Assembly: GCA_028554795.2 (NCBI GenBank)
Contig: CM068839.1
Span: 39,709,006 to 39,773,005 of the forward strand
Source: Sinohyriopsis cumingii
Lineage: Eukaryota > Mollusca > Bivalvia > Unionida > Unionidae
DNA: 64,000 nt
Direction of reading: 5' to 3'
Position 1 is the first letter of the stretch. Every line of letters starts with the position of its first letter. This document shows positions 44,381 to 64,000 of the stretch, in pieces. Below the pieces are notes generated by a model. That model was not told the origin of the DNA. It ran no database searches and saw nothing but the letters and a program-made list of their open reading frames with translations. A program made the translations under genes and the position numbers.

Positions 44381-44442
44381 TGTAAATTTAAATTAGAGAT
44401 TGTGGAGCTAGGTTAGACCTTTCGCAGAGGGAATTTGTTTGG

Positions 44443-45612: not shown

Positions 45613-46164
45613 TTTGGCTAGATTAAAAATTCAGCACCCGTGCTCCCCACCCACCAAGGAGCCCAACAAGGGGACACTTTTTAAGTGCCAGGGATACACA
45701 GATGCCATAGTCAGTTGATAAAATTACCTTTGATTGACGTTGAAGTCGCCAATTTCTAAGGTCGGTAAAATTATCCCCCGATTGACCCGTTAAGCCACCG
45801 CCTTCTAGAAAGTCTTCTAAGACTTGGAAAAGGGAAAGATAAAGGACTAGAATACAGGGGCAACGGTGGTATCAAGAGAGATACAAGGAGAAAGATAAAG
45901 GAGGTAAGAGAGTAAATAAAGACTTCCTAGGGCTCGGCGTGACCAGCCGATTTGTCGGAAGCGGGTCCATCCCGACCACCCGTCTAAGAGAAGTAGAGGC
46001 CAAGTAGTGTATTGCAGGGAAAGCCTCTGCTCAACTACCAGGATCCTTTCCTCCACCGACACGAGACGCAACCCACGGCAAACAGGTTGCCTCTACTTAG
46101 TCGCCTTTTACGACACGTAGCGAGGCACGTCGGGCCAATTCTACAACCCCGGACCCGCAGGGGG
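45613..46164 (-). promoter_or_regulatory. LINE 5' UTR with probable internal promoter
   Basis: The segment from the 5' terminus (sense CCCCCTGCGGGTCC) to the ORF1 start is nearly identical to 58677-59228. It includes ggcgactaagtagaggcaac and a stretch around gtgggtggggagcacgggtg shortly before ORF1. LINEs of this type transcribe from internal 5' promoters, so the promoter must lie here; the exact site is not visible. Confidence 0.6.
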
Positions 46165-46178
46165 ATTAAGACTCAGCA

Positions 46179-47229
46179 ACGCGCATGCATAGGTGTATGT
46201 GTCTGAGAAAAAGAGTCACTGTAAAGACCACACTTAGACTCCGGACGGTGAATATGGTATCATTAACATGTATCGGACATTGTAGTTTCTTTTATAAGTG
46301 CAAGTTCAACAAGAGAACTTGCAAAAATGAAGTCATTCTATGAAGAATATCATGGAATAAGCCACGTGAAGTAATGCTTTTTGTATCATTGTTTTACATG
46401 TATTTTAAAACAGATGTGGTGCAATTTTGCATTGATGCCACGCGGACTTCTTTATCAGCCTTAGTGGTCTTGAGTTGAATCCAGCTATTGGTGATCAAAT
46501 TATGACGCGTCCAGCCTTACTCATCCTGTTTTACTAACTTCGGCAACGCGTTAAAGCTTAAATGCAATTCACTGGCGCAACGTGCTTTAACTGTTTTCTC
46601 CATTATCGATATTAACCTACTATGCATATAAAAGGTTGATGATTTTTAGTGGTAGGTACAAAGCACACCCCTCGTCAGATTGTCGTGTCTTATGAGCAAG
46701 TTGAGGTATTGTAACATTGTTACTCGTGCTTATCTCGATATTGTACCTTAACCATCATTCTCGTAAGTACGCTAGACAAAATATATGCATTTTCTGACAA
46801 ATTCCAGACTTTTCCACATTGTGTCAGTCAGATGTAACATTGACAGGACAAGTATTCGCAGCTCTACCGTTTGTACCTCCCTACCAAATTTAAAGAAACA
46901 GAATGCATAAATCATATAAAAATGCATCAAATTTAATCATTTCATACATCAATTTATAATTTTTAACATGATTGTCGCCAGGGATCTTCCCCCAAAACGT
47001 TCAACTTGTTGGCATTTCAAATCAAACGGGAGTTTCTATGTTAACACGGTCGCCCTATTTGCATAGGCCAGTCTAGGTTTTCAAGAAACAATCGTGATCG
47101 TTAACAGCCTATGTCAATCTCAATATTTCTGAAACCAGAAAATGACAGTGAGCAGTCTGTCTGCTTGCTTACATCGGGGGTATCCGATTGCCTTGAAATG
47201 CTAACAAAGTGACAGTTTCTGGGAGCTCC
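46179..47229. other. Interval without recognised features
   Basis: It has mixed composition, short unrecognised frames, and no repeat matching others in the window. It separates the two LINE blocks. Confidence 0.5.
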
Positions 47230-47381
47230 TGTTGTTGTTGTCGGGTTTAACGCCATTTTTCAGCACACGATAGGCTATATACATGGCGGCCAGTATTAAT
47301 GGTGGAGGAAAACCCACCGAAACACGAAAAGCTTCTGGCAAGCTTTCTCACATACCCACATTGGCCGAATCCTAGACTCGC
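47230..47381 (-). mobile_element. tRNA-derived SINE, family 1, 5'-truncated copy
   Basis: The minus-strand body (inverse of catggcggccagtattaatg) runs from box-B remnant GAGTCTAGGATTCGG to a (CAA)n tail. It is flanked by the 11-bp duplication ggagctcctgt on both sides (near 47222 and 47382). Confidence 0.9.
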
Positions 47382-47696
47382 GGAGCTCCTGTCGACAGTC
47401 AAGTTAGATAATATATACTGATGAATGAAATGAATAAGTTTTATGCATTTTATATTCTTTATGCTTTTAGTTTTAAAATTGGTAGGGGTTCAAAACAAAC
47501 AGGAGGGTGTGCGAATACTATAAAAGACATTCTTATTGTAATAACCCTTATTTCTTCTTCATTACCGTACCATTATTAAATGTTTTTTTTTCGTAAAGTG
47601 ATGAGCGTATTTTAACTTCACCCTATTATGTTGTTAGTTATATCAGTTGGGTTTATAATACATTTTTATTTAAGTCTCTTGTGTTTATGACATTTA

Positions 47697-47908
47697 ATTG
47701 ATTGATTGATTGATCGAGTTTAACGGCGCATCAGCACTGTTAGGCTATTTAGCGCCAAACAAAATGTTATATGTATAATCTTTTAAAAATTATAAAAAGT
47801 TTCATATCGAGCAGCGATATAAAAAAAAAATAGTTGAAATTAAAACGGTAAGATGGTAACGGTGGAAAATAAAGCTTCCCGATCAACGGGGGATGTAAAT
47901 GTTGTATG
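47697..47908 (-). mobile_element. LINE array member B0 (3' fragment)
   Basis: Only about 200 bp of the LINE 3' UTR plus (CAAT)n tail. Its truncated 5' end abuts the tail of B1 directly. The left flank 47,382-47,696 holds nothing recognised. Confidence 0.93.
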
Positions 47909-49255
47909 ATTGATTGATTGATTTTATTTTTAACGGCGCATCAGCACTGTTAGGCTATTTAGCGCCAAACAAAATGTTATTTGTATAATCTTTTAAAAAA
48001 TTATAAAAGGTCCTACATCGACCAGCGATATAAAAGAAGAAATGGTTGAAATTAAAAACGGTAAGATGGTAACGGTGCAAAATAAATGTTCTATGTTAAT
48101 GAAAAAAGATGAAAATGTATTAAAATGGGACGGTATATATATTGCATAAAACTGCACAAGGTGATAGCATAAAAGTCAGAGTTTAGAGTAAATATTTACG
48201 GCTTTCAGGAACTCTATAATACGAGTGATGTTTATAGTATCAAAAAGTTCTTTCATGTCATGCACAATGTAATAACGATCGCGCGTAGATTGCAGGTCAA
48301 AGCACTCTATCACAAAGTGTTTGACAGTGAATGGTTCATTACAAGAAACGCACTCTGGTGGGTCTTCACCTTTTAGTATGTGGGAGTGGGTGATATGAGT
48401 ATGACCAATTCGGATTCTTGCAATGACTATCTCCTCCCTACGAATGGTTCTGTAGGAAGGAGTCCATTCTCCTAGAGTTGGCTTGATTGCGTGAAGTTTG
48501 TTATTTACAGCATAATTCCATGATGCCTGCCACTTCTGACGTAAGAACTTTCTGATACAAGGTTTGAAATCAGTATACGGTATTTTAAAATCAGATGGTT
48601 CTAAAGTAAGAGCCATTTTAGCAGCGCGATCAGCTTTTTCGTTACCTTTAATACCGATATGGCTAGGTAACCAGCAATATAATATCTCGTGGGAGACACT
48701 CATCTCGGTATTTTTGACGAGCATGTTTTTCAATAATGGATTCTCCAGTTTTCTATTATGTAGTGACTGAAGTACTGATAGTGAGTCAGAGAAGATAATA
48801 CTTTTTAAAATAGGTTTGTTTGTTATATGTCGCAGAGCAAGGTCTATTGCTCTGATTTCGGCTGAAAAAATTGATGTTCCATTTGGTAAGCGAACTTGCG
48901 TTGTGTGATTTCCACAAACAAAGGCTGCAGCAGCCTTTTCCTCATCCTTTGATCTGTCGGTATAAATTCTTGTATAGTTTTTAAATTCGGTGAGGAGTTC
49001 TTGATAACAGTTGTGGAAGACGGAAGGGTTTGTCTCAGATTTTTTTCCATCGTGTAGCGAAAAAAGTACTTTTGGTTGTTTAAGTTGCCAGGGTGGTGTT
49101 TCGGAGATGGACGTTTTATGAATTGTAGAAAGATCAATTTTTGTACTGTCAAGGCTGGATGGTATTCTAGTGCCAAAGGAATGTATGGCGTTTGGTTGAT
49201 TTTCGTATAAGGTTTTGTATTTGGGTTGAAAGACAGCCGAAAAAGCAGGATTCAG
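47909..49255 (-). mobile_element. LINE array member B1 (RNase H to 3' end)
   Basis: Truncated in ORF2 at ctgaatcctgc. It contains a broken RNase H region and an intact C-terminal frame (48176-48733) with WLPSHIGIKGNEKAD and CVSCNEPFTVKHFVIEC. It is joined without spacer to B0 and B2. Confidence 0.94.
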
Positions 49256-49884
49256 ATTGATTAATTGATTGATTTTTTAACGGCGCATCAGCACTGTTAG
49301 TCTATTTAGCGCCAAACAAAATGTAATTTGTATATTTTTTAAAAAATTATAAAGGTCCTATATACCAGCGATGTAAAAGAAGAATTGGTTGAAATTAAAA
49401 ACGGTAAGATGGTAACGGTGCAAAATAAAGCTTCCCGATCAACGGGAGATGTAAATGTTCTATGTTAATGAAAAACGATGAAACGGTATTAAAATGGGAC
49501 GGTATATATATTGCATAAAACTGCACAAGGTGATAGCATAAAAGAGTTTTGAGTAAATATTTACGGCTTTCAGGAACTCTATAATAAGAGTGATGTTTAT
49601 AGTATCAAAAAGTTCTTTCATGTCATGCACAATGTAATAACGATCGCGCGTAGGTTGCAGGTCAAAGCACTCTATCATAAAGTGTTTGACAGTGAATGGT
49701 TCATTGCAAGAAACGCACTCTGTTGGGTCTTCACGTTTTAGTATGTGGGTGTGGGTGATATAAGTATGACCAATTCGGATTCTTGCAATGACTACCTCCT
49801 CCCTACGCATGGCTCTGTAGGAAGGAGTCCATTCTGCTAGAGTTGGCTTGATGGCATGAAGTTTGTTATTCACGGCATCATTCC
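49256..49884 (-). mobile_element. LINE array member B2 (C-terminal ORF2 to 3' end)
   Basis: Truncated at tggaatgatg in ORF2. The frame 49460-49873 carries the zinc-like motif CVSCNEPFTVKHFMIEC. The terminal TGA of ORF2 is altered by a short deletion, so the frame runs on past IYSKL. Confidence 0.93.
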
Positions 49885-52800
49885 ATTGATTGATTGATTT
49901 TTAACGGCGCATCAGCACTGTTAGGCTATTTAGCGCCAAACAAAGTGTTATTTGTATAATCTTTTAAAACTTATAAAAGGTCCTATATCGACCAGCGATA
50001 TAAAAGAACAAATGGTTGAAATTAAAAACGGTAAGATGGTAACGGTGCAAAATAAAGCTTCCCGATCAACGGGAGATGTAAATAAGATGAATAGGTATTA
50101 AAATGGGACGGTATATATATTGCATAAAACTGCACAAGGTGATAGCATAAAAGCCAGAGTTTAGAGTAAATGTTTACGGTCTTCAGGAACTCAATAATAC
50201 GAGTATGTTTATAGTATCAGAAAGTTCTTTCATGTCATGCACAATGTAATAACGATCGCGCGTAGGTTGTAGGTCGAAGCACTCTATCATAAAGTGCTTG
50301 ACAGTGAATGGTTCATTGCAAGAAACGCACTCTGGTGGGTCTTCACCTTTTAGTATGTGTGTGTGGGTGATATAAGTATGACCAATTCGGATTCTTGCTA
50401 TGACTACCTCCTCCCTACGAAAGGTTCTGTAGGAAGGAGTCCATTCTCCTAGAGTTGGGTTGATTGCATGAAGTTTGTTATTCACGGCATCATTCCATGA
50501 TGCCTACCACTTCTGACGAAAGAACTTTCTGATGCAAGGTTTAAAATCAGTATATGGTATTTTAAAATCAGATGGTTCTTGAGTAAGGGCCATTTTAGCA
50601 GCGCGATCTGCTTTTTCGTTACCTTTAATACCAATGTGGCTAGGTAACCAACAGTATATTATATTGTGGGAGACACTCAGCTCGGTAGTTTTGACGAGTA
50701 TGTTTTTCAATAATGGGTTCTCCAGTTTTGTATTGTGTAGTGACTGGAGTACTGATAGCGAGTCGGAGAAGATGATACTGTTTAAAATATGGTTCTTTTC
50801 TATAAGTTGCAGAGCAAGGTCTATTGCTCTGATTTCGGCTGTAAAAATTGATGCTCCATTTGGTAAGCGATCTTGCGTTGTGAGGTTTCCACAAAGGCTG
50901 CAGCAGCCTTTTCCTCATCCTTTGATCCATTAGTGTAAATTCTGGTGTAGTTTTTAAATTCGGTGAGGAGTTCATGGTAAGAGTTGTGGAAGACAGAAGG
51001 GTTTGTTTCAGATTTTTTCCTATCGTGTATTGTAAAACGTACTTTTGGTTGTTTAATTAGCCAGGGTGGTGTTTCGGAGATGGACGTTTTCTGAATTTTA
51101 GAAAGATCTATATTTGTAGTGTCAAGGCTGGATGATATTCTAATGCCAAAAGAAGGTATGGCGTTTGGTTTATTTTCGTATAAAGTTTTGTATTTGGGTT
51201 GAAAAACAGCCGAAAAAGCAGGATTCAGAGGGTTTGATTTTAATTTGAGAGCATACTGTGCGGAAAGCATTTCTCTACGATGTGATAACGGTGGTTCATT
51301 CGCCTCAGCTAGGAGGCTTTCACACGGGGATGTTTTAAATGCTCCCAGAGCCAGTCTTATTCCCTGATGATGAATTGGATCAAGCATTTTAAGATATAAC
51401 TTTCGGGCTGAACCATACACAACGCAACCATAGTCTAGTTGGAGCGAATAAACGCTCTATATAAATTCAGGATGACTTTTCTATCAGCACCCCAGTCAGT
51501 GTGCGCTACCACTTTAAGTAGGTCAAGTGCTTTTAAGCATTTGGCTTTCAAGTTTTTTAGGTGTGGAATAAAAGTCAGTTTTCTGTCAAAGATAATACCC
51601 AAAAAGTTTGTTTCCTCAACAACTGGGATAAGTGTTCCGTCCAGCGTGAGTTTAGGTTCATCGTGCTGTCGTCGTAATTGACAGAAATGCATACATACCG
51701 TTTTTGATTTCGAGAATTTGAAACCGTTCGTACTAGCCCAATTTTGAATCTTGTTGATATTTTGCTGTAGTTGTCTTTCAATTGTATGCATGTGCTTTGA
51801 CCGATAACATATGAGAAAATCATCAACATATAGTGAGCAATCCACACCAGGAGTCAAACACTTGGTGATGCTATTAATTTTGATATTGAAAAGTGTCACA
51901 GATAAAATACTGCCCTGGGGCACACCCATCTCTTGCTCGTGCAAATCTGAGAGACTACAGCGCACTCGTACCTTGAATTCTCTGTCTGAGAGGAAGTTGG
52001 ATATGAAAGACGGCAGACGGCCTTTTAGACCTAGATCGTGCAGGCCTGTTAGTATCCCGTACTTCCATGTTGTATCATAGGCCTTTTCTAAATAAAAAAA
52101 ACCCGCTACTAAATGTTCTTTCTTGATAAATGCATCGCGAATGAATGTTTCTAGTCTAACCAGATGATCGTTGGTGCTGCGTCCATAACGAAAGCCACTT
52201 TGGAAAGGAGATATTAAATTGTTAGTTTCCAGGTACCATACAAGCCGAGAATTGATCATTCGTTCCATTGTTTTGCACACACAGCTTGTGAGTGCAATAG
52301 GTCGATAGTTGGTAGGATCTTCGCTATCTTTACCGGGTTTGGGAACTGGTATTACTGTTGCTTCTTTCCATAATTTAGGTAGGTTACCAGTAATCCATAA
52401 ATCATTGAAGAGTTTCAAAAGAGATGTTAAAGATGATTCTGGAAGATGTTTTAAAAACTGGTAATGTATTTTGTCAGGCCCAGCGGAAGTATCATGGGCC
52501 TTGTCTAAAGCCTCCATAAGTTCTGATAGTGAAAACAGCTGGTTGTAGCTTTCCTAGTTGTTGGATGTGAATTTTAAACGTGACTTTTCTTTATGAGTTT
52601 TCAATTTTTGGAAGGCTTCAGAATAATTAGATGATGACGAATTTTTAGAGAATGTATCAGCAAGAACGTTTGCTATGTCACGTTTTGAGCTAAGATTGTT
52701 ATTGTTCACTTTTAGATGTCGGAAAGAATTGTGTTTTCTCTTTCCGTTTATTTTGCGGATCGTGTCCCAAACTTTCTTAATTGAGGAACGAGACTTTAAA

Positions 52801-53503
52801 GAGGAAAGATATTTCATCCATGATGCTCGTTTACTTTCTTTGATTGTGCGGCGAGCTTTGGTCCGGAGAATACGATATTTACTTAAATTCTCGGGCGTCG
52901 GATGATTGTTAAATTTTTTTCAAGGCTTCTCGACGTTGCCGTATGGCTTCCTTACATTCCTTAGTGAGCCAAGGTTTTAGGGTTCCTTTACAGTTTGTTG
53001 ATGACTTGGGGATAGATTCTTCTGCAATGTCGGTTAAAATAGATGTAAAATGCTGAATGGGGTCGTTAACATTGAAAACTGTATCCTAATTCAGCCTGGT
53101 TTTACAGAGTGTTTCGAATTTGGCCCAGTCGGCCTTCTTTAAATTCCATTGTGGAATTACTTCCTCAATTGTAGAGTTATGATTTACAAGGGAGATTGGG
53201 AAGTGATCGCTGCTGTGAAGGTCATCAGCGACCTTCCATTCATAGTCCAAAAGCAGCGAAGGAGAACAAATTGTCAAATCGATGCATGTGTATGTACCCG
53301 TGCCTGGGTGTAAATATGTAGGTGTTTTGGTATTATATAGACACAGATCGTGTCTAGAAATAAAGTCTTCAACTTTGTGACCTCTGTCACTTACATGATT
53401 CGATCCCCATAAAATGTTATGGGCATTAAAATCCCCGAGTAAAACAAAGGGTGCGGGAAGCTGTTGAACAAGATTGTCGAGTTCGTTTGGTACTAGGTTA
53501 GTG
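49885..53503 (-). mobile_element. LINE array member B3 (3.6 kb, lacks ORF1)
   Basis: Truncated within the endonuclease domain at cactaacctagtacc. It retains the endonuclease C-part (53086-53277), linker (52554-52817), RT with YVDD (51435-52517) and RNase H (50183-51420). Several stops and frameshifts break it, including a 3-residue loss inside AAAAFVCGNH. The strand order is the same as B0-B4. Confidence 0.94.
51435..52517 (-). pseudogene. LINE reverse transcriptase fragment (B3)
   Basis: A 360-residue open stretch with VPKPGKDSEDPTNYRPIALT, FQSGFRYGRSTNDHL, GVPQGSILSVTLF and CSLYVDDFLICY. FFDLEKAYD is changed to FFYLEKAYD, which removes the first catalytic aspartate of the RT palm. It is cut at its C end by a one-base deletion (tagttggagcg for tagtttggagcg). 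Confidence 0.93.
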
Positions 53504-53776
53504 ATTGATTGATTGATTGATTTTTAACGGCGCATCAGCACTGTTAGGCCACCCAGCGCCAAACAAAGTGTTATTTGTATAATCTTTTAAAACTTATAAA
53601 AGGTCCCCCCTCGACCAGCGATACAAAAGAAGAAACAGTTGAAATTAAAAACGCTAAGATGGTAACGGTGGAAAATAAAGCTTCCCGATCAACGGGAGAT
53701 GTAAATAAGATGAATATGCACCAAAATGGGACAGCACACACACTGCATAAAACTGCACAAGGTGATAGCATAAAAG

Positions 53777-56700
53777 TCAGAGTTTAGAGTAAATATTTAC
53801 GGCTTTCAGGAACTCTATGATACGAGTGATGTTTATAGTATCAAAAAGTTCTTTCATGCCATGCACAATGTAATAACGATAGCGCGTAAGTTGTCGGTCG
53901 AAGCACTCTATCATAAAGTGCTTGACAGTGAATGGTTCATTGCAAGAAACGCACTCTGGTGGGTCTTCACCTTTTATTATGTGGGTGTGGGTGATATAAG
54001 TATGACCAATTCGGATTCTTGCAATGACTATCTCCTCCCTACGAATGGTTCTGTAGGAAGGAGTCCATTCTCCTAGAGTTGGGTTGATTGCATGAAGTTT
54101 GTTATTCACGGCATCATTCCATGATGCCTGCCACTTCTGACGAAAGAACCTTCTGATACAAGGTTTAAAATCAGTATATGGTATTTTAAAATCAGATGGT
54201 TCTTGAGTAAGGGCCATTTTAGCAGCGCGATCTGCTTTTTCGTTACCTTTAATACCAATGTGGCTAGGTAACCAACAGTATATTATATTGTGGGAGACAC
54301 TCAGCTCAGTATTTTTGACGAGTATGTTTTTCAATAATGGGTTCTTCAGTTTTCTATTGTGTAGTGACTGAAGTACTGATAGCGAGTCGGAGAAGATGAT
54401 ACTGTTTAAAATATGGTTCTTTTCTATATGTTGCAGCGCAAGGTCTATTGCTCTGATTTCGGCTGTAAAAATTGATGCTCCATTTGGTAAGCGAACTGGC
54501 GTTGTGTGATTTCCACAAACAAAGGCTGCAGCAGCCTTTTCCTCATCCTTTGATCCATCAGTGTAAATTCTGGTGTAGTTTTTAAATTCAGTGAGGAATT
54601 CATGGTAAGAATTGTGGAAGACAGAAGGGTTTGTTTCAGATTGTTTCCCATCGTGTAGTGTAAAAAGTACTTTTGGTTGTTTAAGTAGCCAGGGTGGTGT
54701 TTCGGAGATGGACGTTTTCTGAATTTTATTAAGATCTATATTTGTAGTGTCAAGGCTGGATGATATTTTTAATGCCAAAAGAAGGTATGGCGTTTGGTTT
54801 ATTTTCGTATAAAGTTTTGTATTTGGGTTGAAAAACATCCGAAAAAGCAGGATTCAGAGGGTTTGATTTTAATTTGAGAGCATACTGTGCGGAAAGCATT
54901 TCTCTACGATGTGATAACGGTGGTTCATTCGCCTCAGCTAGGAGGCTTTCACACGGGGATGTTTTAAATGCTCCCAGAGCCAGTCTTATTCCCTGATGAT
55001 GAATTGGATCAAGCATTTTAAGATATAACTTTCGGGCTGAACCATACACAACGCAACCATAGTCCAGTTTGGAGCGAATAAACGTTCTGTATAAATTTAG
55101 GATGACTTTTCTATCAGCACCCCAGTCAGTGTGCGCTACTACTTTAAGGAGGTTAAGTGCTTTTAAGCATTTAGCTTTTAAGTTCTTTAGGTGTGGAATA
55201 AAGGTCAGTTTTCTGTCAAAGATTATACCTAAAAATTTTGTTTCCTCAACAACTGGAATAGGTGTTCCATCCAGCGTGAGTTTCGGTTCATCGTGATGTT
55301 TTCGTAGTTGACAGAAATGCATGCATACCGTTTTTGATTTCGAGAATTTGAAACCGTTTGCACTGGCCCAATTTTGAATTTTGTTTATATTTTGCTGTTG
55401 TTGTCTTACAATTGTATGCATGTGCTTTGATCGATAACATATTAGAAAATCATCAACGTATAAGGAGCAATCCACACCAGGAGTCAAACACTTGGTGATG
55501 CTATTAATTTTGATGTTAAAGAGCGTCACAGATAAAATACTGCCCTGGGGCACATCCATCTCTTGTTCGTGCATATCTGAGAGGGTAGAGCCCACTCGTA
55601 CTTTGAATTCTCTGTCGGAGAGGAAGTTGGATATGAAAGAGGGCAGACGGCCTTTTAGACCTAGATCGTTCAGGTCATTTAGTATCCCGTACTTCCATGT
55701 CGTGTCATAGGCCTTTTCTAAATCAAAGAAAACCGCTACTAAATGTTCTTTCGTAATAAATGCATCGCGAATGAATGTTTCTAGTCTAACCAGATGATCG
55801 TTGGTGCTGCGTCCATAACGAAAGCCACTTTGGAAAGGAGATAATAAATTGTTAGTTTCCAAATACCAGACAAGCCGAGAATTGATCATTCGTTCCATTG
55901 TTTTGCACACACAGCTTGTGAGTGCAATTGGTCGATAGCTGTTGGGGTCTTGGCTATCTTTACCGGGTTTGGGGACTGGTATTACAGTTGCTTCTTTCCA
56001 GATTTTTGGTACATTACCAGTAATCCATAAATCATTGAAGAGTTTCAAAAGAGATGTTAAAGATGATTCTGGAAGGTGTTTTAAAAACTGGTAATGTATT
56101 TCGTCAGGCCCAGCGGATGTATCATGGGCCTTATCTAAAGCCTCCCTAAGCTTCGATAGTGAGAACAATTGATTATAACTTTCCGAGTTGTTGGATGCGA
56201 ATTTTAAACGTGACTTTTCTTTTTGAGTTTTAAGTTTTCGGAAGGCTTCAGAATAATTAGATGATGAGGAATTTTTTGAGAAACTGTCAGCAAGAATATT
56301 TGCAATGTCACGTTTTGAACTAAAGTTGTTATTGTTCAGTGTCAGATGTCGGAGAGGGTTTTGTTTTCTCTTTCCGTTTATTTTGCGTATAGTGTCCCAA
56401 ACTTTCTTAACAGAGGAACGAGAGTTTGAAGAGGAAACATATTTCTTCCATGATGCTCGTTTACTCTCTTTGATTGTGCGGCGAGCTTTGGCCCGGAGGA
56501 TACGATATTTACTTAAATTCTCGGCGTCGGATGATTGTTAAATTTTTTCAAGGCTTCTCGACGTTGCCGTATGGCTTCCTTACATTCCTTAGTGAGCCAA
56601 GGTTTGAGGGTTCTTTTCCAGTTTGTTGATGACTTGGGGATAGATTCTTCTGCAATGTCGGTTAAAATGGATGTAAAATGCTGAATGGGATCGTTAACAT

Positions 56701-57451
56701 TGAAAACTGTATCCTCATTCAGCCTAGTTTTACAGAGTATTTCGAACTTGGCCCAGTCGGCCTTCTTTAAATTCCATTGTGGAATTACTTCCTCAATTGT
56801 AGAGTTATGATTTACAAGGGAGATTGGGAAGTGATCGCTGCTGTGAAGGTCATCAGCGACCTTCCATTCATAGTCCAAAAGCAGCGAAGGAGAACAAATT
56901 GTCAGATCGATGCACGTGTATGTACCCGTGCCTGGGTGTAAATATGTAGGTGTTTTGGTATTATATAGACACAGATCGTGTCTAGAAATAAGGTCTTCAA
57001 CTTTGTGACCTCTGTCACATGATTCGATCCCCATAAAATGTTATGGGCATTAAAATCCCAGTGTAAAATAAATGGCTCGGGAAGCTTTTGAACAAGGTCG
57101 TCTAATTCGTTTGGTACTAGGTTAGTGTTTGGTGGTAAGTAAATAGAGAAAAATGTAACCACTCGATAGAGTGACGCTTACAGCAATGGCTTGTAAATTT
57201 GTGTTTAAAGGTATGACGCTATTAAGGGCTCTGTTGTTCACAATAACACAGACTCCTCCTGAGGCCCTGTCAACATTTTGAGAGTAGTTGTTAAACAGGG
57301 AGTAGTTTTTAAGTGTGATGTTATCTGTATTTTTCAAAAATGTTTCCTGAAGACATAGTACTGCAGGATCATGTTCATTTAAAAGCAGAAGAATAACATG
57401 GTAGTTGGTTTTAAGTCCTCTACAGTTCCATTGTAAAATGGTGTTCTTCAT
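53777..57451 (-). pseudogene. LINE ORF2, frameshifted (B4)
   Basis: The domain order is complete: endonuclease (QWNCRGL, CLQETFL, SSDHFPI), RT (FFDLEKAYDTTW, DVPQGSILSVTLF, CSLYVDDFLICY), RNase H (IYTDGSKDEEKAAAAF, FSDSLSVLQSL, LPSHIGIKGNEKAD) and terminal CVSCNEPFTVKHFMIEC, stop at 53777. A two-base loss near 57165 and further indels near 57,020, 56,520 and 54,770 break the frame. Confidence 0.93.
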
Positions 57452-57508
57452 TACAACTTTATATTGAAGATTCTGGAGCTAGGTTAGACCTTTCGGCAAT
57501 CTGTTTGG

Positions 57509-58673
57509 TTATTTATCTGGAGGAAGTACGGGGGTGTATTTTTTGTTGTTAGGTCTGGAGCTACCTTGAGTACATGGAGCAGATTCTTCTGCATCCATGT
57601 CTTCCAAGTCTCCAAACCTATTGTGCAGCTTTATGGGGTCATCAGACCCCTTTTGCTGCCTATTTGTTTGTGACTTTTTCTTGCTATTTGGTGATCTTGG
57701 TGGTGGAGTATTGTTGAGTGTTGTTTGTGTCGATGTAGAGTTTTTCTGGGGTTTGTAGTGCGGGATGATCGAGTCGGAATGGGATTCAGGTGGGTTTGTT
57801 TGAGTTTGAGCATCTTTCATTGCTTTTTGGCTGCTCTTCACTACAGTTGAGAAGGATGGGCCGGGGAGTGATCTAGCTTGAACAAGCTTCCTGGCCTCTG
57901 GATAGGGGATGTTGGACGTGTATTTAACCCTCTGGATTTCCTTCTCCTGTTTCCATGTGTCGCATTCCTTTGAACTAGCATGGTGTTCTTTGCCGCAGTT
58001 GACGCAATGCGGAGTGGCTTTGCACTGATTCCCAATGGGAGGGGTCGCCGCATCGGCCGCATATTTGACTTCTAGTGCATCTGTCTTCATGATGACCGTA
58101 TTTTTGACATTTGTAACATCGGAGGGGATTTGGTATGTATACCTCAACCTTAAGTTGTAGGAATCCAACCTTGACCACTTTAGGTACTGTTGGCTTATTA
58201 AAGGTGAGTATAATAGTGTTGGTGTCCTGCAGATTGTTGTTTCGTTTCATACGAATTCTGCGGACTGCAGTGACACCTTCATTTTTCATACCCTCGACGA
58301 TTTCTTTGTCGGCGACTCCTGCTAGGTCACGGCAACGAATGACGCCTTTTGATGTGTTAAGTGTAGAGTGGACGAAACAGCTTACTGAAATATCGTGAAA
58401 GGTCTTAATTTTTAGGATATTTTCAGTGTGTGCTTTGCGCTCACACTCTACAAGTAGGCCGCCTGATTTTAGCTTTTTTACACTTTTCGGCTTGCCGACT
58501 AATCCAAGTATAGTCTTTTCGACTATAAATGGCGATAGTGCAGCAAGTGGTTTAGCCTCGTCTTTAGATTGGATGACCATGAAGCGAGGAAAGGATTCCA
58601 CATTACATGGCTCATCATCCGACTCTGATCCAGTTTTGGTACGTTTGTGTTGGATTTTTTTTGAATTATCCAT
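57509..58673 (-). pseudogene. LINE ORF1, frameshifted (B4)
   Basis: It starts MDNSKKIQHKRTK. The RRM-like half and the first knuckle CYKCQKYGHHEDRC are intact. A small deletion in the second knuckle (after CGRCGDPSHWE) shifts the frame, and the rest (CVNCGKEHHASSKEC, Gln/Thr-rich tail) continues in another phase. It is clearly diverged from copy A. Confidence 0.92.
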
Positions 58674-59228
58674 GATGGCTTGAATAAAATTTCAGCACCC
58701 GTGCTCCCCACCCACGAAGGAGCCCAACAAGGAGACACTTTTCAAGTGCCAGGGATACACAGATGCCATACTCGGTTGATAAAATTACCTTTGATTGACC
58801 CTGAAGTCGCCAATTTCTAAGGTCGGTAAAATTACCTCCCCGATTGACCCGTTAAGCCACCGCCTTCTAGGAAGTCTTCTAAGACTTCGAAAAGGGAAAG
58901 ATAAAGGAATAGAATATAGGGGCAACGGTGGTATCAAGAGAGATACAAGGAGAAAGATAAAGGAGGTGAGAGTAAATAAAGACTTCCTAGGGCTCGGCGT
59001 GACCAGCCGATTTGTCGGAAGCGGGCCCATCCCGACCACCCGTCTAAGAGAAGTAGAGGCCAAAGTAGTGTATTGCAGGGAAAGCCTCTGCTCAACTACC
59101 AGGATCCTTTCCTCCTCCGACACGGGACGCAACCCACGGCAAACAGGTTGCCTCTACTTAGTCGTCTTTTACGACACGTAGCGAGGCACGTCGGGTCAAT
59201 TCTACAACCCAGGACCCGCAGGGGGATT

Positions 59229-59537
59229 CGCCTGTACAAGGTTTTTGGCTTCTGGATAGGGAATATTATTTGTGTATTTTACCCTCTGAATGTCCTTCTC
59301 CTGTTTCCAGGTATCGCAATCCTTAGAATTTGCGTGGTGCTCTTTTCCACAATTAACACAATGCGGAGTTACTTTACTATCAGATTCCTGATGAGCATTG
59401 TCTCCGCATCGGCCACATATTTGGCTCTTGGAGCAGCGGTCTTCGTGATGGCCGTATTTTTGACACTTATAACACCAAAGGGGGTTGGGAATGTAAACCT
59501 CTACCTTTACTTGCAAAAAGCCAACTTTTACCACTGT
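59229..59537 (-). mobile_element. LINE ORF1 internal fragment (B5)
   Basis: It encodes the knuckle region (CYKCQKYGHHEDRC, CGRCGDNAHQESDS, CVNCGKEHHANSKDC), closer to copy A than to B4. The second knuckle has lost its last Cys. It abuts the 5' end of B4 directly and ends against non-LINE sequence at about 59537. It may be the remains of the element that B4 entered. Confidence 0.9.
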
Positions 59538-59797
59538 TCTCGGCATTTGAACATGTGGACTACCGTGGAGTCATCAACTATAATTTCATCCATGATGTTC
59601 CGGCCGGACATACCGATGTATGTCCGATCCAAGTGGACAGTTGTCCACAGGACAGACACATGCCTATGGATAAGAATATATGTGGAGAGGCAAGGATGCG
59701 TAAAGAGAATATTAGTATATGGCCATGCAGTCAGGCGCAGCTTGAGAAGAAGAAGATCTCACAGATGCCCTCTATGTTAATACTAAGGGTATATTAA
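59538..59797 (+). other. Unidentified segment, upstream copy of a ~250-bp direct repeat, ends at a histone-type stem-loop
   Basis: Shares aacatgtggactaccgtgg, gatgttccggncggacatac and ggccatgcagtcaggcgcag with 59902-60150. Two plus-strand phases are open to stops at 59778-59780 (tail rich in Arg: RRSLRRRRSH) and 59795-59797. A stem-loop in plus orientation follows 12 nt after the second stop. The left end is cut by LINE sequence. I do not recognise the protein in any phase. Confidence 0.45.
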
Positions 59798-59809
59798 CAT
59801 AAAACCAAA

Positions 59810-59845
59810 GGCCCTTTTCAGGGCCACTCATAGGTCTCCAAAAGA
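59810..59845 (+). promoter_or_regulatory. Histone-type mRNA 3' stem-loop with downstream element (plus)
   Basis: ggcccttttcagggcc (59810-59825) has a perfect 6-bp stem and the TTTC loop of replication-dependent histone mRNAs, preceded by aaaccaaa and followed by act. The purine-rich ccaaaaga at 59838-59845 is placed like the U7-binding histone downstream element. Confidence 0.8.
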
Positions 59846-59901
59846 CCTTGACTTTCATTGCCTACCCCATTTTAAAAAATGAATGAATGAATTCCTTCAC
59901 C

Positions 59902-60150
59902 TGTTCTCGGCAATCCAACATGTGGACTACCGTGGAGTCATCAACTATCATTTCATCCATGATGTTCCGGACGGACATACCGATGTATGTGGACAGTTGT
60001 CCACAGGCCAGACACCAGCCTGTGGATAAGACGAATATATGTGGAGAGGTAAGGATGCCTAAAGAGAGTATTAGTATATGGCCATGCAGTCAGGCGCAGC
60101 TTGAGAAGAAGATCTCACAGATGCCCTCTATGTTAATACTAAGAGTAGTG
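59902..60150. repeat. Second copy of the ~250-bp direct repeat
   Basis: About 90% like 59538-59797 by eye. It has a 10-bp deletion after gatgtatgt and a 3-bp insertion in gataagacgaatat, so plus-strand phase differs between the copies. No stem-loop follows it. A minus-strand phase is open for about 70 codons and ends near 59863. Confidence 0.8.
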
Positions 60151-60160
60151 AAGGGGGCGA

Positions 60161-60400
60161 GATTAGCGACAATGGGAATTAGCATTAAAAACACCCCTAG
60201 GTAAGATTAGCGACAAGGGAAATTTAACATGGAGAAAAATCGTGGGTAAGATTAGCGACAAGGGAAATTAACATGGAGAAAAATCGTGGGGCGGTTCAGC
60301 GTCAAAGGAAATTAAACAGGGTGGGACTTTATAACGTCAAGGGAAATTGAACATGGGATTTAAAAATTTTTTTTTTTTAAAAAAAAAAAAATATAAAATA
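60161..60400. repeat. 44-45-bp tandem repeat followed by poly-T/poly-A
   Basis: gattagcgac recurs at 60161, 60205 and 60250, each followed by aagggaaatt-type and catggagaaaaatcgtgg blocks. Degenerate copies (cgtcaagggaaattgaacat) reach 60350. A run of T then A (60366-60400) follows. A related string (gacaatgggatttagcataa) occurs near 63690. Confidence 0.8.
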
Positions 60401-60450
60401 AAAAAAGGGGTAGGCAATTGAAAGGCTATCTCTTTTCGAGAAATATGGCT

Positions 60451-60466
60451 GGGCCTGAAAAGGGCC
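60451..60466 (-). promoter_or_regulatory. Histone-type 3' stem-loop of gene 60491-61078
   Basis: The minus strand reads AAAGGCCCTTTTCAGGCCC with one C-C mismatch in the stem. It lies 24 nt after the stop codon. Downstream CGAAAAGA (60438-60431) resembles the U7-binding element. The flank down to the GCCTACCCC motif matches the flank of the plus-strand stem-loop at 59810, in inverse orientation. Confidence 0.8.
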
Positions 60467-60490
60467 TTTGGGTTTCTTCTTCTTCTTCTT

Positions 60491-61078
60491 CTAACTCCTT
60501 AACTTCTTCCACCAAGTCCTCACTTTTTCCATTATTCCTTTCTTCTTCTTTTTCTCCTCTGGCATCCAGTCTGGATGGCCCAAGGCTCTAAACTTTTCCT
60601 GGACTTTCATCCAATTCTTATTTAGCCTCTCGAACTCTTTCTTTTTCTTTTGGTTTTCTTTTTCTTTCCTTTCTACAGTCCAAATGTCTTTTATTATCTT
60701 GACTTGTTCTCTCATCACTTTCCTCATCATCTCCTCTGCTTTCATCATTTGGTTTAAACCCCATTTCACATAGAACCACTCAGTCCACTCCAAAATATCT
60801 GTTAAAAAACACCTCACTTCAATAGCATAATCAAGGGCCTCTATCAGTTTACCTACTTTCACATAGTCAAGTTGTATGAAGCCTCTTAACTTTTTAACCT
60901 CCTCTTCAATCATGTCCCCAATCAGATCCCTGGCAAGTTTTGGACTCGTCACTTGACGTTTGACAAAGTCCTTAGTAACTTCATGCATCCACTCCTTCTC
61001 TAGCCTTTCCACCACATAGGCTGCATCTGTCATCCAGTACCAACTATCCTTTAGCTCATTAAATAGTTCAGTACTCAT
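60491..61078 (-). CDS. Unknown 195-residue basic coiled-coil protein with histone-type 3' end
   Basis: It starts MSTELFNELKDSWYWMTDA. The protein is predicted largely helical, with Lys/Glu-rich heptad-like stretches from about residue 115 and very basic runs near residues 143-148 and 176-180; it is rich in Trp and Met. It has no signal peptide, membrane segment or domain I know. The start is supported by a TATA-like box (CTATAAGA) about 55 nt upstream inside the shared promoter module. The stop lies 24 nt before a histone-type stem-loop. It shares a loose N-terminal pattern with the next two genes and may be a paralogue. The role is unknown; a structural or DNA-binding viral protein is one possibility. 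Confidence 0.75.
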   Translation of the reverse strand: MSTELFNELKDSWYWMTDAAYVVERLEKEWMHEVTKDFVKRQVTSPKLARDLIGDMIEEEVKKLRGFIQLDYVKVGKLIEALDYAIEVRCFLTDILEWTEWFYVKWGLNQMMKAEEMMRKVMREQVKIIKDIWTVERKEKENQKKKKEFERLNKNWMKVQEKFRALGHPDWMPEEKKKKKGIMEKVRTWWKKLRS

Positions 61079-61124
61079 TTTTCTTGGGTTATTCCGTAGA
61101 ATGGTTCCAAAGACGAACGTGATG

Positions 61125-61236
61125 GGTTCTTATAGTGAAAGTGCGGACGTGAAGGAAAACATCCCCCTAAAACATAAAATTGATCTTACCTAGATCATGG
61201 CCTAACAACTCGCGGACGTGAAGGAAAACATCCCCC
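61125..61236 (-). promoter_or_regulatory. Shared promoter module, two copies, gene 60491-61078
   Basis: Minus strand: GGGGATGTTTTCCTTCACGT continuing CCGC lies at 61166-61142 and again at 61235-61211. The proximal copy is followed by ACTTTCACTATAAGA with a TATA-like box. The spacer contains GATCTAGGTAAGATC, a short imperfect palindrome also present ahead of the next gene. Confidence 0.75.
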
Positions 61237-61468
61237 TACTTTCTCATTTCATATAATAAAACCAGAACTATACTCTCCACATATGCTAAGAAACAATAAA
61301 TAAACCCATAATCTACTATTCACACAAACATACCTGAGCTCTTACAAACACAAACACACAAACACATACCCTCACACTATCTTAAAAAAGAGTTAGTGTT
61401 TATATTCACACTACTCTACCTAAACACATTGGCAAATAGATCGTTATTTGTTTTCTAGAGTATTGGGT

Positions 61469-61484
61469 AGCCCTGAAAAGGGCT
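61469..61484 (-). promoter_or_regulatory. Histone-type 3' stem-loop of gene 61516-61890
   Basis: Minus strand AGCCCTTTTCAGGGCT has a perfect 6-bp stem and TTTC loop, preceded by AAAAAC and followed by ACCCA, as in histone mRNAs. It lies 31 nt after the stop. CTCTAGAAAACAAA downstream is in the position of the U7-binding element. Confidence 0.85.
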
Positions 61485-61515
61485 GTTTTTTTTTTTGAAC
61501 TTCATGGACACCTGG

Positions 61516-61890
61516 TTAATGGTGGCACCTTCCAGGCCTGGCGCCGCATACACATCTTATCCCCCAGTTACTTTTTACCTTTTGGGGGGAAAGAGCAGAG
61601 GCAGGATATGTGGCTTCAGAATCCCAATTTTCGGTTTCTGGGATTCTGAAATTTCTTCTTCTCTCCTTTTCCTCCTCCTCCTCTTCTTTGTATCTTCTCT
61701 CCTCCTCTTTGTATCTTCTTTCCTCTTCTTCTTTATATCTTCTCTCCTCCTCTTCTTTGTTTCTTCTTTCCTCCTCCTGTCTTATCCTTCCCTCCTCCAC
61801 AATGGCTTCCGCGGCCAGTTCATTTAATATGCGCCTGGCATATTCCAGATGCACATGAAGTTCCAACAGTTTCTCCAGTCTCGTGTTCAT
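61516..61890 (-). CDS. Unknown 124-residue Glu/Arg-repeat protein with histone-type 3' end
   Basis: It starts MNTRLEKLLELHVHLEYARR. Residues 1-35 form a probable amphipathic helix. Residues 36-80 are an imperfect YKEEEERR repeat, a single charged helix. The C-terminal part (from NFRIPETENW) ends with Cys/His (CVCGARPGRCHH). The N-terminus resembles that of the 62384-62755 product in spacing of Leu and Ala/Arg residues. The repeat could have grown by slippage. It has its own copy of the shared promoter module and a stem-loop 31 nt after the stop. The antisense strand is also open but lacks these signals. Confidence 0.65.
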   Translation of the reverse strand: MNTRLEKLLELHVHLEYARRILNELAAEAIVEEGRIRQEEERRNKEEEERRYKEEEERRYKEEERRYKEEEEEEKERRRNFRIPETENWDSEATYPASALSPQKVKSNWGIRCVCGARPGRCHH

Positions 61891-61939
61891 TTTTGGTGTT
61901 GATCAATCAACAAGGGTAGCTGGACTGCCGAACGAGTTT

Positions 61940-61980
61940 CAATATATAGTGAAAGCGCGGACGTGAAGGAAAACATCCCC
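61940..61980 (-). promoter_or_regulatory. Shared promoter module, gene 61516-61890
   Basis: Minus strand GGGGATGTTTTCCTTCACGT plus CCGCG (61980-61956), then CTTTCACTATATATTG with a TATA box about 55 nt before the ATG. A weaker partial copy (AGGTCCGCGCG) lies at about 62033-62023. Confidence 0.78.
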
Positions 61981-62338
61981 TAAAAACATAAAATTGATCT
62001 TACCTAGATCATGACCATAAAACAACGCGCGGACCTAAAAGAAACACTCACTCACTTTTTATGCTACCCATCACTATTTTAAAATTTTTTATAAATCACT
62101 TCAATAGACTATCCACATACGCAAAGCAATCCAATCTAACCCCAAATATACACCTCAAACACCAAAAAAGACATCATTTTAATCTACTATCCATACCAAC
62201 GTACTTAACCACTTACAAACACAAACACACAAACACATACCCTCACATTTTTTATAAAGGAGTTAGTGTTTATATTCACACTACTCTACCTACACACATT
62301 GGCAAATCGATCGTTATTTCTTTTCTAGAGTATTGGGT

Positions 62339-62354
62339 AGCCCTGAAAAGGGCT
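62339..62354 (-). promoter_or_regulatory. Histone-type 3' stem-loop of gene 62384-62755
   Basis: Identical to the stem-loop at 61469-61484 and followed by ACCCAATACTCTAGAAAAGA, with a purine-rich downstream element. It is 29 nt after the stop. About 150 bp of flank is nearly identical to the flank at 61345-61500, showing duplication of the unit. Confidence 0.85.
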
Positions 62355-62383
62355 GTTTTTTTGTTTTGCTATGGCATTCTTTT

Positions 62384-62755
62384 TTAGTTTCCAAGAATGC
62401 GGTGTCCTCTGAGGATAGACTTTCTGGCGATAGGTCTGCTTCTTCGGAAAGAGACGAAGAACTCTTTGGTGTCGATACGACAATCGACAATGCCTCTGTC
62501 AGCTTCAGGTTGTTGCTGCTGTTGCTGTTGCTGCTGTCTCTGAAGTCTGTACTTCTCTGTCCATTCTTCTTTCTCCCTGTTCATTTCTTCTCTGAAGAGC
62601 TCTTCTATCAGGTCTTCAGTGATTTTTAACATTCTCACATTCTCTATTTCTTCTGGCTTCGGTATCAGACTGTGTCTGACCCTATGCAAATTCACGTAGG
62701 CTTCGTTTAGCTTAGCTAGTTTGGAGCACATCTTCTTAGGAGGATGAGTCGACAA
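62384..62755 (-). CDS. Unknown 123-residue protein with poly-Gln and histone-type 3' end
   Basis: It starts MSTHPPKKMCSKLAKLNEAY. A helical N-terminal half (to about residue 72, with EDLIEELFREEMNREKEEW) is followed by a run of Gln (CAG/CAA slippage), then a basic C-terminus with RRSRPIARKS. No known domain is seen. The N-terminal pattern (helix, then an EE-rich helix) is shared loosely with its two neighbours, so I infer a small paralogous family. The promoter module lies 40-70 nt upstream and the stem-loop 29 nt downstream. Confidence 0.7.
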   Translation of the reverse strand: MSTHPPKKMCSKLAKLNEAYVNLHRVRHSLIPKPEEIENVRMLKITEDLIEELFREEMNREKEEWTEKYRLQRQQQQQQQQQPEADRGIVDCRIDTKEFFVSFRRSRPIARKSILRGHRILGN

Positions 62756-62786
62756 TGGATGGTTAGACTGGAAACAACCCCGGTTC

Positions 62787-62823
62787 TTAAAGTCAAAGCG
62801 CGGACGTGAAGGAAAACATCCCC
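62787..62823 (-). promoter_or_regulatory. Shared promoter module, gene 62384-62755
   Basis: Minus strand GGGGATGTTTTCCTTCACGT plus CCGCG (62823-62799), then CTTTGACTTTAAGAACC in the place of the TATA box. The core is exactly conserved with the other modules while sequences around it differ. Confidence 0.75.
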
Positions 62824-62951
62824 CACACGGTTTTCGAGCCGCAACGTTCAGTGAGTGTCATGAGAGGGATAGGAAGAAATCAAAGAGCATCAATCCAACA
62901 TTCTTATAGCTAAACAAAAGACAAAGGCATTTTTTTCAAAACACAACATTT

Positions 62952-62957
62952 TTTATT
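62952..62957 (-). promoter_or_regulatory. Polyadenylation signal AATAAA of the protease remnant
   Basis: Minus strand GAATAAAAAATG about 115 nt past the protease stop, in an AT-rich 3' region. No histone-type stem-loop is present here, so this gene appears to use ordinary polyadenylation, unlike its neighbours. Confidence 0.5.
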
Positions 62958-63072
62958 CAAAAATCACTTAACACTAAACAACAACTCTAACATTTTTTTA
63001 ACAATAATCCAACACTATAACATCAAACAATTTTTTTCAAATCACAAACATTTTTTTTTTTCAATTGACAAT

Positions 63073-63430
63073 CTACTTTAAACAGGGATAACAACGTTGT
63101 GAATGGAATTGTGATTTCCACTGTTGGAAATCATTAGGCCATTGATGGACACTACGTTTCCTAGCTTGAGACAAAAGATAATCATAATGGTCACAAAACC
63201 ATCGATCTACTTTCACATCGTTTCTAGCAGAAGAACGAGGATCAAAATGAGTCACTAAATGTTCTAAGGAATAGCCCAGGCTGCGATGATGCAGAAAATA
63301 CACACAGTACTGTCCACACACCAAGGAATCTGTGCCTTGCAATTTCACATTATTGAATCGGATGGTTTGAGCATTTCTTCTCATAAAGTCAATGATATCG
63401 TCTTCCAAAGGGGGCAATCCGTACGAATCG
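63073..63430 (-). pseudogene. Adenain-like cysteine protease, C-terminal part (Maverick/adintovirus type)
   Basis: The remnant has DSYGLPPLEDD, the spot where adenain-type enzymes have the acidic residue of the triad in an F(D/E)xxG context. It then has GTDSLVCGQYCVYFLHHR, the catalytic Cys motif. The last ~70 residues are basic and end CYPCLK. In adenoviruses, adintoviruses and Mavericks/Polintons this enzyme matures virion proteins. The upstream part, including the catalytic His region, is missing: a LINE tail abuts the sequence exactly before the acidic motif. It is non-functional as it stands. A cellular ULP1-type protease is less likely given the motif context. Confidence 0.72.
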
Positions 63431-63523
63431 ATTGATTGATTGATTGTTTGTTTTTTAACGGCGCATCAGCACTTTTAGGCTATTTAACGCCAAACAAAAT
63501 GTTACTTGTATAATCTTTTTAAG
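63431..63523 (-). mobile_element. Short LINE 3' fragment inserted in the protease gene
   Basis: The family 3' tail (attg)n and ttaacggcgcatcagcactt followed by tatttaacgccaaac, truncated after about 93 bp. No target duplication is seen, consistent with loss of neighbouring protease sequence on insertion. Confidence 0.92.
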
Positions 63524-63566
63524 ATGAAATTCTCGTACTCAGGTAGTTGATTTGAGAAGTATCCAT
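63524..63566 (-). pseudogene. Probable N-terminus of the interrupted protease
   Basis: An ATG at 63566-63564 opens MDTSQINYLSTRIS, directly on the far side of the LINE fragment. Its position and style (short helical start with Thr-Ser-Gln) fit the beginning of Maverick-type proteases as I remember them. The stretch between this and the acidic motif, expected to be several tens of residues, is absent. Confidence 0.4.
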
Positions 63567-63970
63567 GTTTACCTCTACAACGCACAAGTTTTACAATCAC
63601 CAATAATCAAAGGTAACAGGGCATCGCGTTAACTTGCTAATGAAAAGACAGGTCTAAGTTTTTATGAGTAGTAATAGGGGACAATATACGGACAATGGGA
63701 TTTAGCATAACAAGACCCCTTGGGACGATATATGGACAAGGAATATACTGACATAAGGTAGGGACTGTACACGGACAAGGGAAAGTTGGTAACAATATAG
63801 CAAGGGGCTGGCCGCAATTTAACAAACAGCAGGGAAAAAGCCTTGAATGCTTGCCGGGGCGGGACTGGCGGGACATAGAAATATATAACACTTACAACAC
63901 ATAGACATAGATTGATGAACATGAAACACATATATGGCAAAGAGAATAAATATCTTTTCGAGGCATATGA
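63567..63970. other. Intergenic segment with ggacaagg-type repeats
   Basis: Degenerate repeats of ggacaa, tatacggaca and agggaaa occur between 63670 and 63840. One string (gacaatgggatttagcat) matches 60170. Short minus-strand frames are not convincing. It separates the protease from a stem-loop that closes a gene lying beyond the window. Confidence 0.45.
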
Positions 63971-63972
63971 GT

Positions 63973-63988
63973 GGCCATGAAAAGGGCC
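63973..63988 (-). promoter_or_regulatory. Histone-type 3' stem-loop of a gene beyond the window edge
   Basis: Minus strand AAAAGGCCCTTTTCATGGCC has one mismatch in the stem, followed by ACTCATATGCCTCGAAAAGA with a U7-type purine element. It matches the flank of the 59810 stem-loop (ACTCATAGGTCTCCAAAAGA). The gene it ends would lie past 64000. Confidence 0.75.
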
Positions 63989-64000
63989 TTTTGGTTTTTC

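Follow-up and report, generated by a model that had tools for sequence, protein, structure and literature searches.

Putative histone-type mRNA 3' ends on non-histone genes beside a virus-like protease fragment in the bivalve Sinohyriopsis cumingii

Results

Small genes and stem-loops at the locus

We analyzed a stretch of 64,000 nucleotides (nt) from Sinohyriopsis cumingii (contig CM068839.1, positions 39,709,006 to 39,773,005 of the forward strand; hereafter the window, in whose own coordinates all positions are given), the last 4.2 kb of which contain five stem-loops resembling the 3' ends of replication-dependent histone mRNAs, three small non-histone open reading frames (ORFs) and a putative fragment of a virus-type protease. 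First, we found that three of the stem-loops closely follow the small ORFs, all of which are on the minus strand and encode 195, 124 and 115 amino acids (aa; 60491..61078, 61516..61890 and 62384..62731, respectively). As the first-pass annotation had claimed, the loops lie 24 to 31 nt past the stop codons of ORFs that are not histones, the stem following the stop after 24 nt in the 195-aa ORF (loop B below), 31 nt in the 124-aa ORF (loop C) and 29 nt in the 115-aa ORF (loop D). The genes are compact and intronless, and a near-identical 5' motif, GGGATGTTTTCCTTCACGTCCGC, is common to all three and is followed by a TATA-like box at -56, -58 and -60, respectively. The region upstream of the 195-aa gene (61125..61236, minus strand) holds two copies of the motif and a TATAA box 56 nt ahead of the ATG; on the same strand, the motif regions of the 124-aa gene (61939..61981) and the 115-aa gene (62782..62824) hold TATATA 58 nt and TTTAAG 60 nt ahead of the ATG. 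With up to three mismatches allowed, this 25-nt motif occurred four times in the 64 kb, always before these three genes and twice at the 195-aa gene. For the 195- and 124-aa genes, the 330 nt past the stop contain neither AATAAA nor ATTAAA. Thus, the predicted layout of the small genes is like that of replication-dependent histone genes, with an upstream motif, a TATA-like box, a short ORF, a stem-loop and a purine element in place of a poly(A) signal.

Second, all five stem-loops reported by the annotation proved to be present on the expected strands, and the Rfam Histone3 model (RF00032) fitted each of them in a cmscan search. They are labelled here A (59810, plus strand), B (60466), C (61484), D (62354) and E (63988; B to E all minus), with stems at 59810-59825 (+), 60451-60466 (-), 61469-61484 (-), 62339-62354 (-) and 63973-63988 (-). 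The scores were 34.5 bits for A (59805..59850), 24.1 bits for B (60426..60471), 30.7 bits for C (61444..61489), 31.0 bits for D (62314..62359) and 28.9 bits for E (63948..63993). The gathering score of the family (34 bits) was reached by only one of the five (A), yet all were significant by expectation (E) value in the whole-window scan, which covered 4227 families and both strands (3.2e-6, 6.4e-5, 8e-5, 3.7e-4 and 0.024 for A, D, C, E and B, respectively). No sixth Histone3 match at E<=1 appeared in the window, and the five matches are packed into 4.2 kb; the covariance model therefore picked out the annotated loops and nothing else, albeit with four of them under the gathering score. A 6-bp stem, which had been ascribed to all five, was confirmed for A (GGCCCT/TTTC/AGGGCC), C (AGCCCT/TTTC/AGGGCT) and D, whereas B and E contain one non-standard pair each. 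When folded alone as RNA, the A, C and D pieces formed the expected stem, B formed a 4-bp version and E preferred a different fold. At the first position of the stem, three loops have a G-C pair and two an A-U pair. There was no clear ORF ahead of loop A, and the gene of loop E would be located past the end of the window.

Shuffled sequences ruled out a chance origin of the hairpins. The pattern GSCCTTTTCAGGSC, with at most one mismatch, gave five matches against 0.08 expected (100 shuffles, largest count 2), and a strict SLBP-type hairpin rule that tolerates one broken pair gave five in 57001-64000 against a mean of 0.05 (300 shuffles, maximum 1). For the whole window, the strict rule gave seven hairpins against 0.425 (40 shuffles, maximum 2), the two additional ones, at 43987 and 53436 on the minus strand, each having one mismatch and no Rfam score.

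Third, a GAAAAGA-like element at a U7-like place, also part of the first-pass annotation, was recovered at every loop: a [CG]AAAA purine core begins exactly 13 nt past the stem in all five cases, and the element is an exact GAAAAGA in three (B, D and E), CAAAAGA in A and GAAAACA in C. The loops fall into two groups, A/B/E and C/D, and ungapped identity between the groups was far from uniform. It was 0.57 over the 12 bases ahead of the stem, rose to 0.83 for the stem-loop and 0.80 for the first five bases past it, fell to 0.28 across the six-base spacer that comes next, rose again to 0.71 at the purine element and dropped to 0.30 over the following ten bases. The stretch 48-62 nt from the stem start gave 0.54, and values of 0.18-0.27 were obtained beyond. 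Two peaks of identity, one at the loop and one at the purine element, are what distinct sites for SLBP and U7 would be expected to produce. The third, smaller peak (48-62 nt) is a TTGCC-like stretch. At loops A and B (59832-59848 and 60430-60444), the purine element forms the loop of an additional small hairpin, which was not seen at C and D.

Repeats around the loops and the origin of the hairpins

The loops are embedded in repeated DNA. Loops C and D lie within a 115-nt duplication (95% identical) and are therefore not independent, so that the change in the first stem pair amounts to at most one event. Loops A, B and E have inverted-repeat blocks of 62-73 nt in common. A direct duplication (59534-59791 and 59901-60147, in pieces that are 87-98% identical) flanks the plus-strand loop A; a coding role for it is doubtful because the copies differ by an 11-nt insertion. 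Downstream of B is a 44-nt tandem array of 3.5 copies (60160-60315), and a related motif is found downstream of E (63756-63784).

Such duplications bear on the question of whether the loops serve the genes before them. One possibility is that they are captured host histone 3' ends that were multiplied by duplication in the element and are now inert, the transcripts ending by poly(A). The blocks common to A, B and E, the damage in two loops and the recent duplication behind C and D would all be expected in that case. However, tblastn of H2A, H2B, H3 and H4 against the window yielded only two H3 fragments (E 0.24 and 0.77), which leaves no histone coding remnant, and neither the position of three loops 24-31 nt past stop codons, nor conservation in two blocks, nor the lack of AATAAA/ATTAAA within 330 nt in two of the three genes would be expected of inert copies, which we consider improbable. 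No Pfam histone family was found among the ORFs scanned. As judged from its sequence, the window is without a histone gene, and the segment is not merely a rearranged host histone cluster, an explanation that the first-pass annotation had named as a danger to its reading and that the absence of any histone ORF in the window excludes.

The hairpins might instead act as DNA or in some other RNA role, for example as recombination or replication sites between units or as terminators on the opposite strand. Repetition of the intergenic blocks across units is compatible with this, as are the T-runs that follow the C and D hairpins on the plus strand and the weak matches there to the bacterial small RNA sbrA (E 0.023 and 0.16, below gathering). 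On the other hand, the TTTC loop, the A-rich 5' flank, the ACC/ACTCA-like 3' flank and the purine spacing agree with the histone model in a single orientation, and at B, C and D the ORFs run the same way; the other strand of A, B and E has no clean T-run. This role thus appears very improbable. A terminator of the bacterial type was rejected on similar grounds, since its strand would not match that of the ORFs at loops B, C and D, and a clean T-run is lacking at A, B and E.

Relatives of the small proteins

Protein relatives were searched for the 195-aa ORF, the 115-aa ORF and the protease fragment. Seven homologues of the 195-aa ORF (P0001-P0007) showed 50-55% identity over 90-99% of the query (alignment A1), and nine homologues of the 115-aa ORF (P0015-P0023) showed 70-81% identity over 56-95% of the query (alignment A3). 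In one relative of the latter, P0016, the open frame continues upstream: its residues 1-66 align with window positions 62949-62752 (43% identity, E 1.9e-4) and its residues 60-183 with 62776-62417 (71%). The alignment of another relative, P0023, starts at 62782, upstream of the ATG of the 115-aa ORF. Together, these alignments indicate that relatives have a recognisable counterpart of the region ahead of the 115-aa ORF. The longest contigs of all seven relatives of the 195-aa protein measured 828-1111 bp, which is close to the 1018-bp loop-to-loop unit of the window; contigs of this size could reflect shared repeats that break assemblies or genuinely small DNA units.

The 195-aa protein was predicted to be all-helical (AlphaFold2; mean predicted local distance difference test score, pLDDT, 80.0), and a fold search with this model gave no match at E<=0.001 in BFVD or PDB. 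The 124-aa ORF is rich in Glu and Arg and of low complexity, and the 115-aa ORF has a basic C-terminal tail. None of the three reached the cut-off of any Pfam family; the 124-aa ORF matched MAP7 below it (E 0.0036). When four proteins were compared with PHROGs, the best result was a match of 48 residues between the 115-aa ORF and a head-tail adaptor family (E 0.0034), which was taken as compositional. Paralogy of the three ORFs was likewise unconvincing from shuffle scores, given such coil-rich proteins: the pair 195/115 scored 58 (the highest of 200 shuffles reached 56), 124/115 scored 62 against 66, 195/124 scored 45 against 63, and the score of the N-termini of 124 and 115 was reached by 40 of 1000 shuffles.

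The protease fragment and its surroundings

Upstream of the 115-aa gene and on the same strand, a C-terminal fragment that is weakly but plausibly of the pS273R/adenain cysteine protease type was found at 63073..63435. The fragment has no histone-type loop; an AATAAA lies 115 nt past its stop instead, so the signal would mark a gene class and not a whole element. Seven homologues (P0008-P0014) showed 62-90% identity over 39-99% of the query (alignment A2). A profile built from six protease sequences matched the African swine fever virus protein Cysteine protease S273R (E 1e-4), two adenoviral chains named Protease (E 0.032) and adenain (1avp; E 0.19). Only the S273R match is convincing alone, because unrelated enzymes appear from E 0.14. 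In the full-length relatives, the blocks GTHWVAVYF, EYFDSYG and VCGQYC can be aligned with S273R, and the window copy begins after the first of them, so that the N-terminal part with the GTHW block is missing. A structure model of the protease was too poor for a fold search (pLDDT 37.7). The Maverick/adintovirus-type protease named by the first-pass annotation therefore stands as far as the pS273R profile is concerned, but the adenain side of the claim is marginal and Pfam C5 stays under its cut-off.

Mavericks carry a protease of the adenain/pS273R type. The placement of the segment with Mavericks and adintoviruses was made because such a protease, weakly matched as it is, occurs here in an animal genome, and the virus identity is thus a conditional one, drawn from one protease. 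PolB, integrase, double jelly-roll capsid and packaging ATPase genes were not noticed among ORFs of at least 100 aa near the loops, in a search that was not exhaustive.

On its left side, the viral-looking segment adjoins copies of long interspersed nuclear elements (LINEs). Several such non-long-terminal-repeat retrotransposon copies occupy 39985-59546 and reach up to the segment, with an ORF1 containing zinc knuckles and an ORF2 containing endonuclease and reverse transcriptase domains. Together with the histone-type signals, these retrotransposons point to an animal host. A 31-nt repeat similar to GCGCATCAGCACTTTTAGGCTATTTARCGCC occurs seven times, six times between 39403 and 49937 among the LINE copies and once at 63461-63491, where it adjoins the protease fragment; repeats similar to it are presumably found in mollusc genomes.

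We also searched for the same genes and loops in viral data. Pattern stretches in IMG/VR viral contigs were obtained for the protease fragment, the 195-aa ORF and alignments A1, A2 and A3, and none was confirmed by tblastn; the same was true of genome contigs searched with A2 and A3. Two loop patterns had no match in the viral contigs, and the single match of a broader pattern (L001, 21.3 bits), inside a 784-aa phage-like ORF, was judged to be due to chance. Phage records gave no match to window positions 59200-64000.

In a quite different explanation, the small genes belong to a non-viral orphan family, of the host or borne by a transposon, with histone-type 3' ends, and the protease is their neighbour by chance or by nested insertion. 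The link to viruses is indeed a single truncated protease whose profile scores are modest, pattern searches followed by tblastn recovered none of these protein families from IMG/VR, and the relatives could be host DNA. However, the protease is on the same strand, with about 260 nt between its stop and the upstream motif of the next gene, the relatives of all three searched families are alike in kind, lying on short contigs that mostly measure about 1-2 kb, and the genes are compact and intronless. We therefore regard a non-viral origin as unlikely.

Discussion

The region from 59.8 to 64 kb is best read, at a probability of about 0.58, as one end, by now partly decayed, of an integrated Maverick/adintovirus-type DNA virus that carries a class of small genes with SLBP/U7-dependent 3' ends. 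In its most far-reaching form, which we hold at roughly even odds, animal DNA viruses or virus-like transposons would include a lineage in which a whole gene class has one promoter motif and mRNAs ended by host SLBP and U7, while the protease would use poly(A). Rather than cargo, the small genes may be part of the element's ordinary gene set.

SLBP is described as binding the loop and the U7 small nuclear ribonucleoprotein (snRNP) the downstream element, with cleavage 3-6 nt past the hairpin, in C. elegans and similarly elsewhere (PMC1924863), and U7 pairing and the cleavage complex have been described as well (PMC9756948). By analogy, host SLBP would bind the stem-loop of each small gene, the host U7 snRNP would pair with the purine element CTNGAAAAGA, and the host histone cleavage complex would cut a few nt past the loop. 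The products would be translatable mRNAs without poly(A), expressed mostly during S phase, a time at which viral DNA can be copied. Histone genes of Hydractinia are reported to have TATA boxes, a stem-loop and a purine-rich element and to lack a poly(A) signal (PMC5011920); since the three genes share this layout, non-poly(A), S-phase expression seems likely. From these features we infer the SLBP/U7 processing, the S-phase timing, the viral identity and a benefit to the element, each of which should be taken as conditional. That the loop is a conserved feature of the gene class is suggested by one 4-kb stretch of sequence.

Several observations weigh against the preferred reading. Four of the five loops are under the Rfam gathering score, two have a broken pair, B and E lack the full stem when folded alone, and C and D are recent duplicates. 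In a covariation test, 60 of 500 shuffles reached the pair score, five sequences being too few for such a test. Shared ancestry instead of constraint could explain part of the conservation pattern, as the likeness at 48-62 nt implies. The 115-aa gene has an ATTAAA 200 nt past its stop. With regard to the protease, the adenain matches are marginal, with chance-type matches from E 0.14 (geranylgeranyl pyrophosphate synthase), and Pfam Peptidase_C5 was under cut-off in two full-length relatives (E 0.06-0.09) and absent for the window fragment. Finally, no other viral hallmark gene accompanies it: a polymerase, integrase, capsid gene or terminal repeat was not identified, without an exhaustive search, and the window ends just past loop E, so that the right part of the element would lie outside it.

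Replication-dependent histone genes are described as the only known genes giving mRNAs that lack poly(A) and end in this type of hairpin (PMC1924863; PMC12775136). If the viral reading is true, the histone pathway can be taken over by non-histone genes, and by several unrelated ones within a virus-like element, which would be a natural non-histone user of the SLBP/U7 pathway. It would also suggest a direct way of tying viral genes to S phase, a built-in switch that couples a gene class to the cell cycle of the host, and would account for such transcripts being missed when RNA is selected for poly(A) before sequencing.

Comparison with known systems

With regard to pS273R and adenain, the protein differs in its length (185 aa), in low overall similarity and, for the window copy, in lacking the N-terminal part with the histidine block; the three blocks of its relatives nevertheless align with pS273R (E 1e-4), and adenain-type matches are at E 0.03-0.19. 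Maverick/Polinton elements and adintoviruses differ from the stretch at hand in that PolB, integrase, capsid, ATPase and terminal repeats were not identified here, and agree with it in having a gene for an adenain/pS273R-type protease within a nuclear genome and compact small genes alongside. Among the open-licence papers listed in literature searches, no title or abstract opening reported histone-type 3' ends in Mavericks, Polintons, adintoviruses, endogenous viruses or virus genomes, which is weak evidence of absence. Compared with metazoan replication-dependent histone genes, the proteins encoded here are not histones, the first stem pair is A-U in two loops, and the upstream motif GGGATGTTTTCCTTCACGTCCGC differs from any histone promoter element known to us. 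The two are alike in the sequence and structure of the loop, the purine element just downstream, the TATA-like box, the short intronless ORF, a stop-to-loop distance of a few tens of nt and, in two of the three genes, the lack of a poly(A) signal close by.

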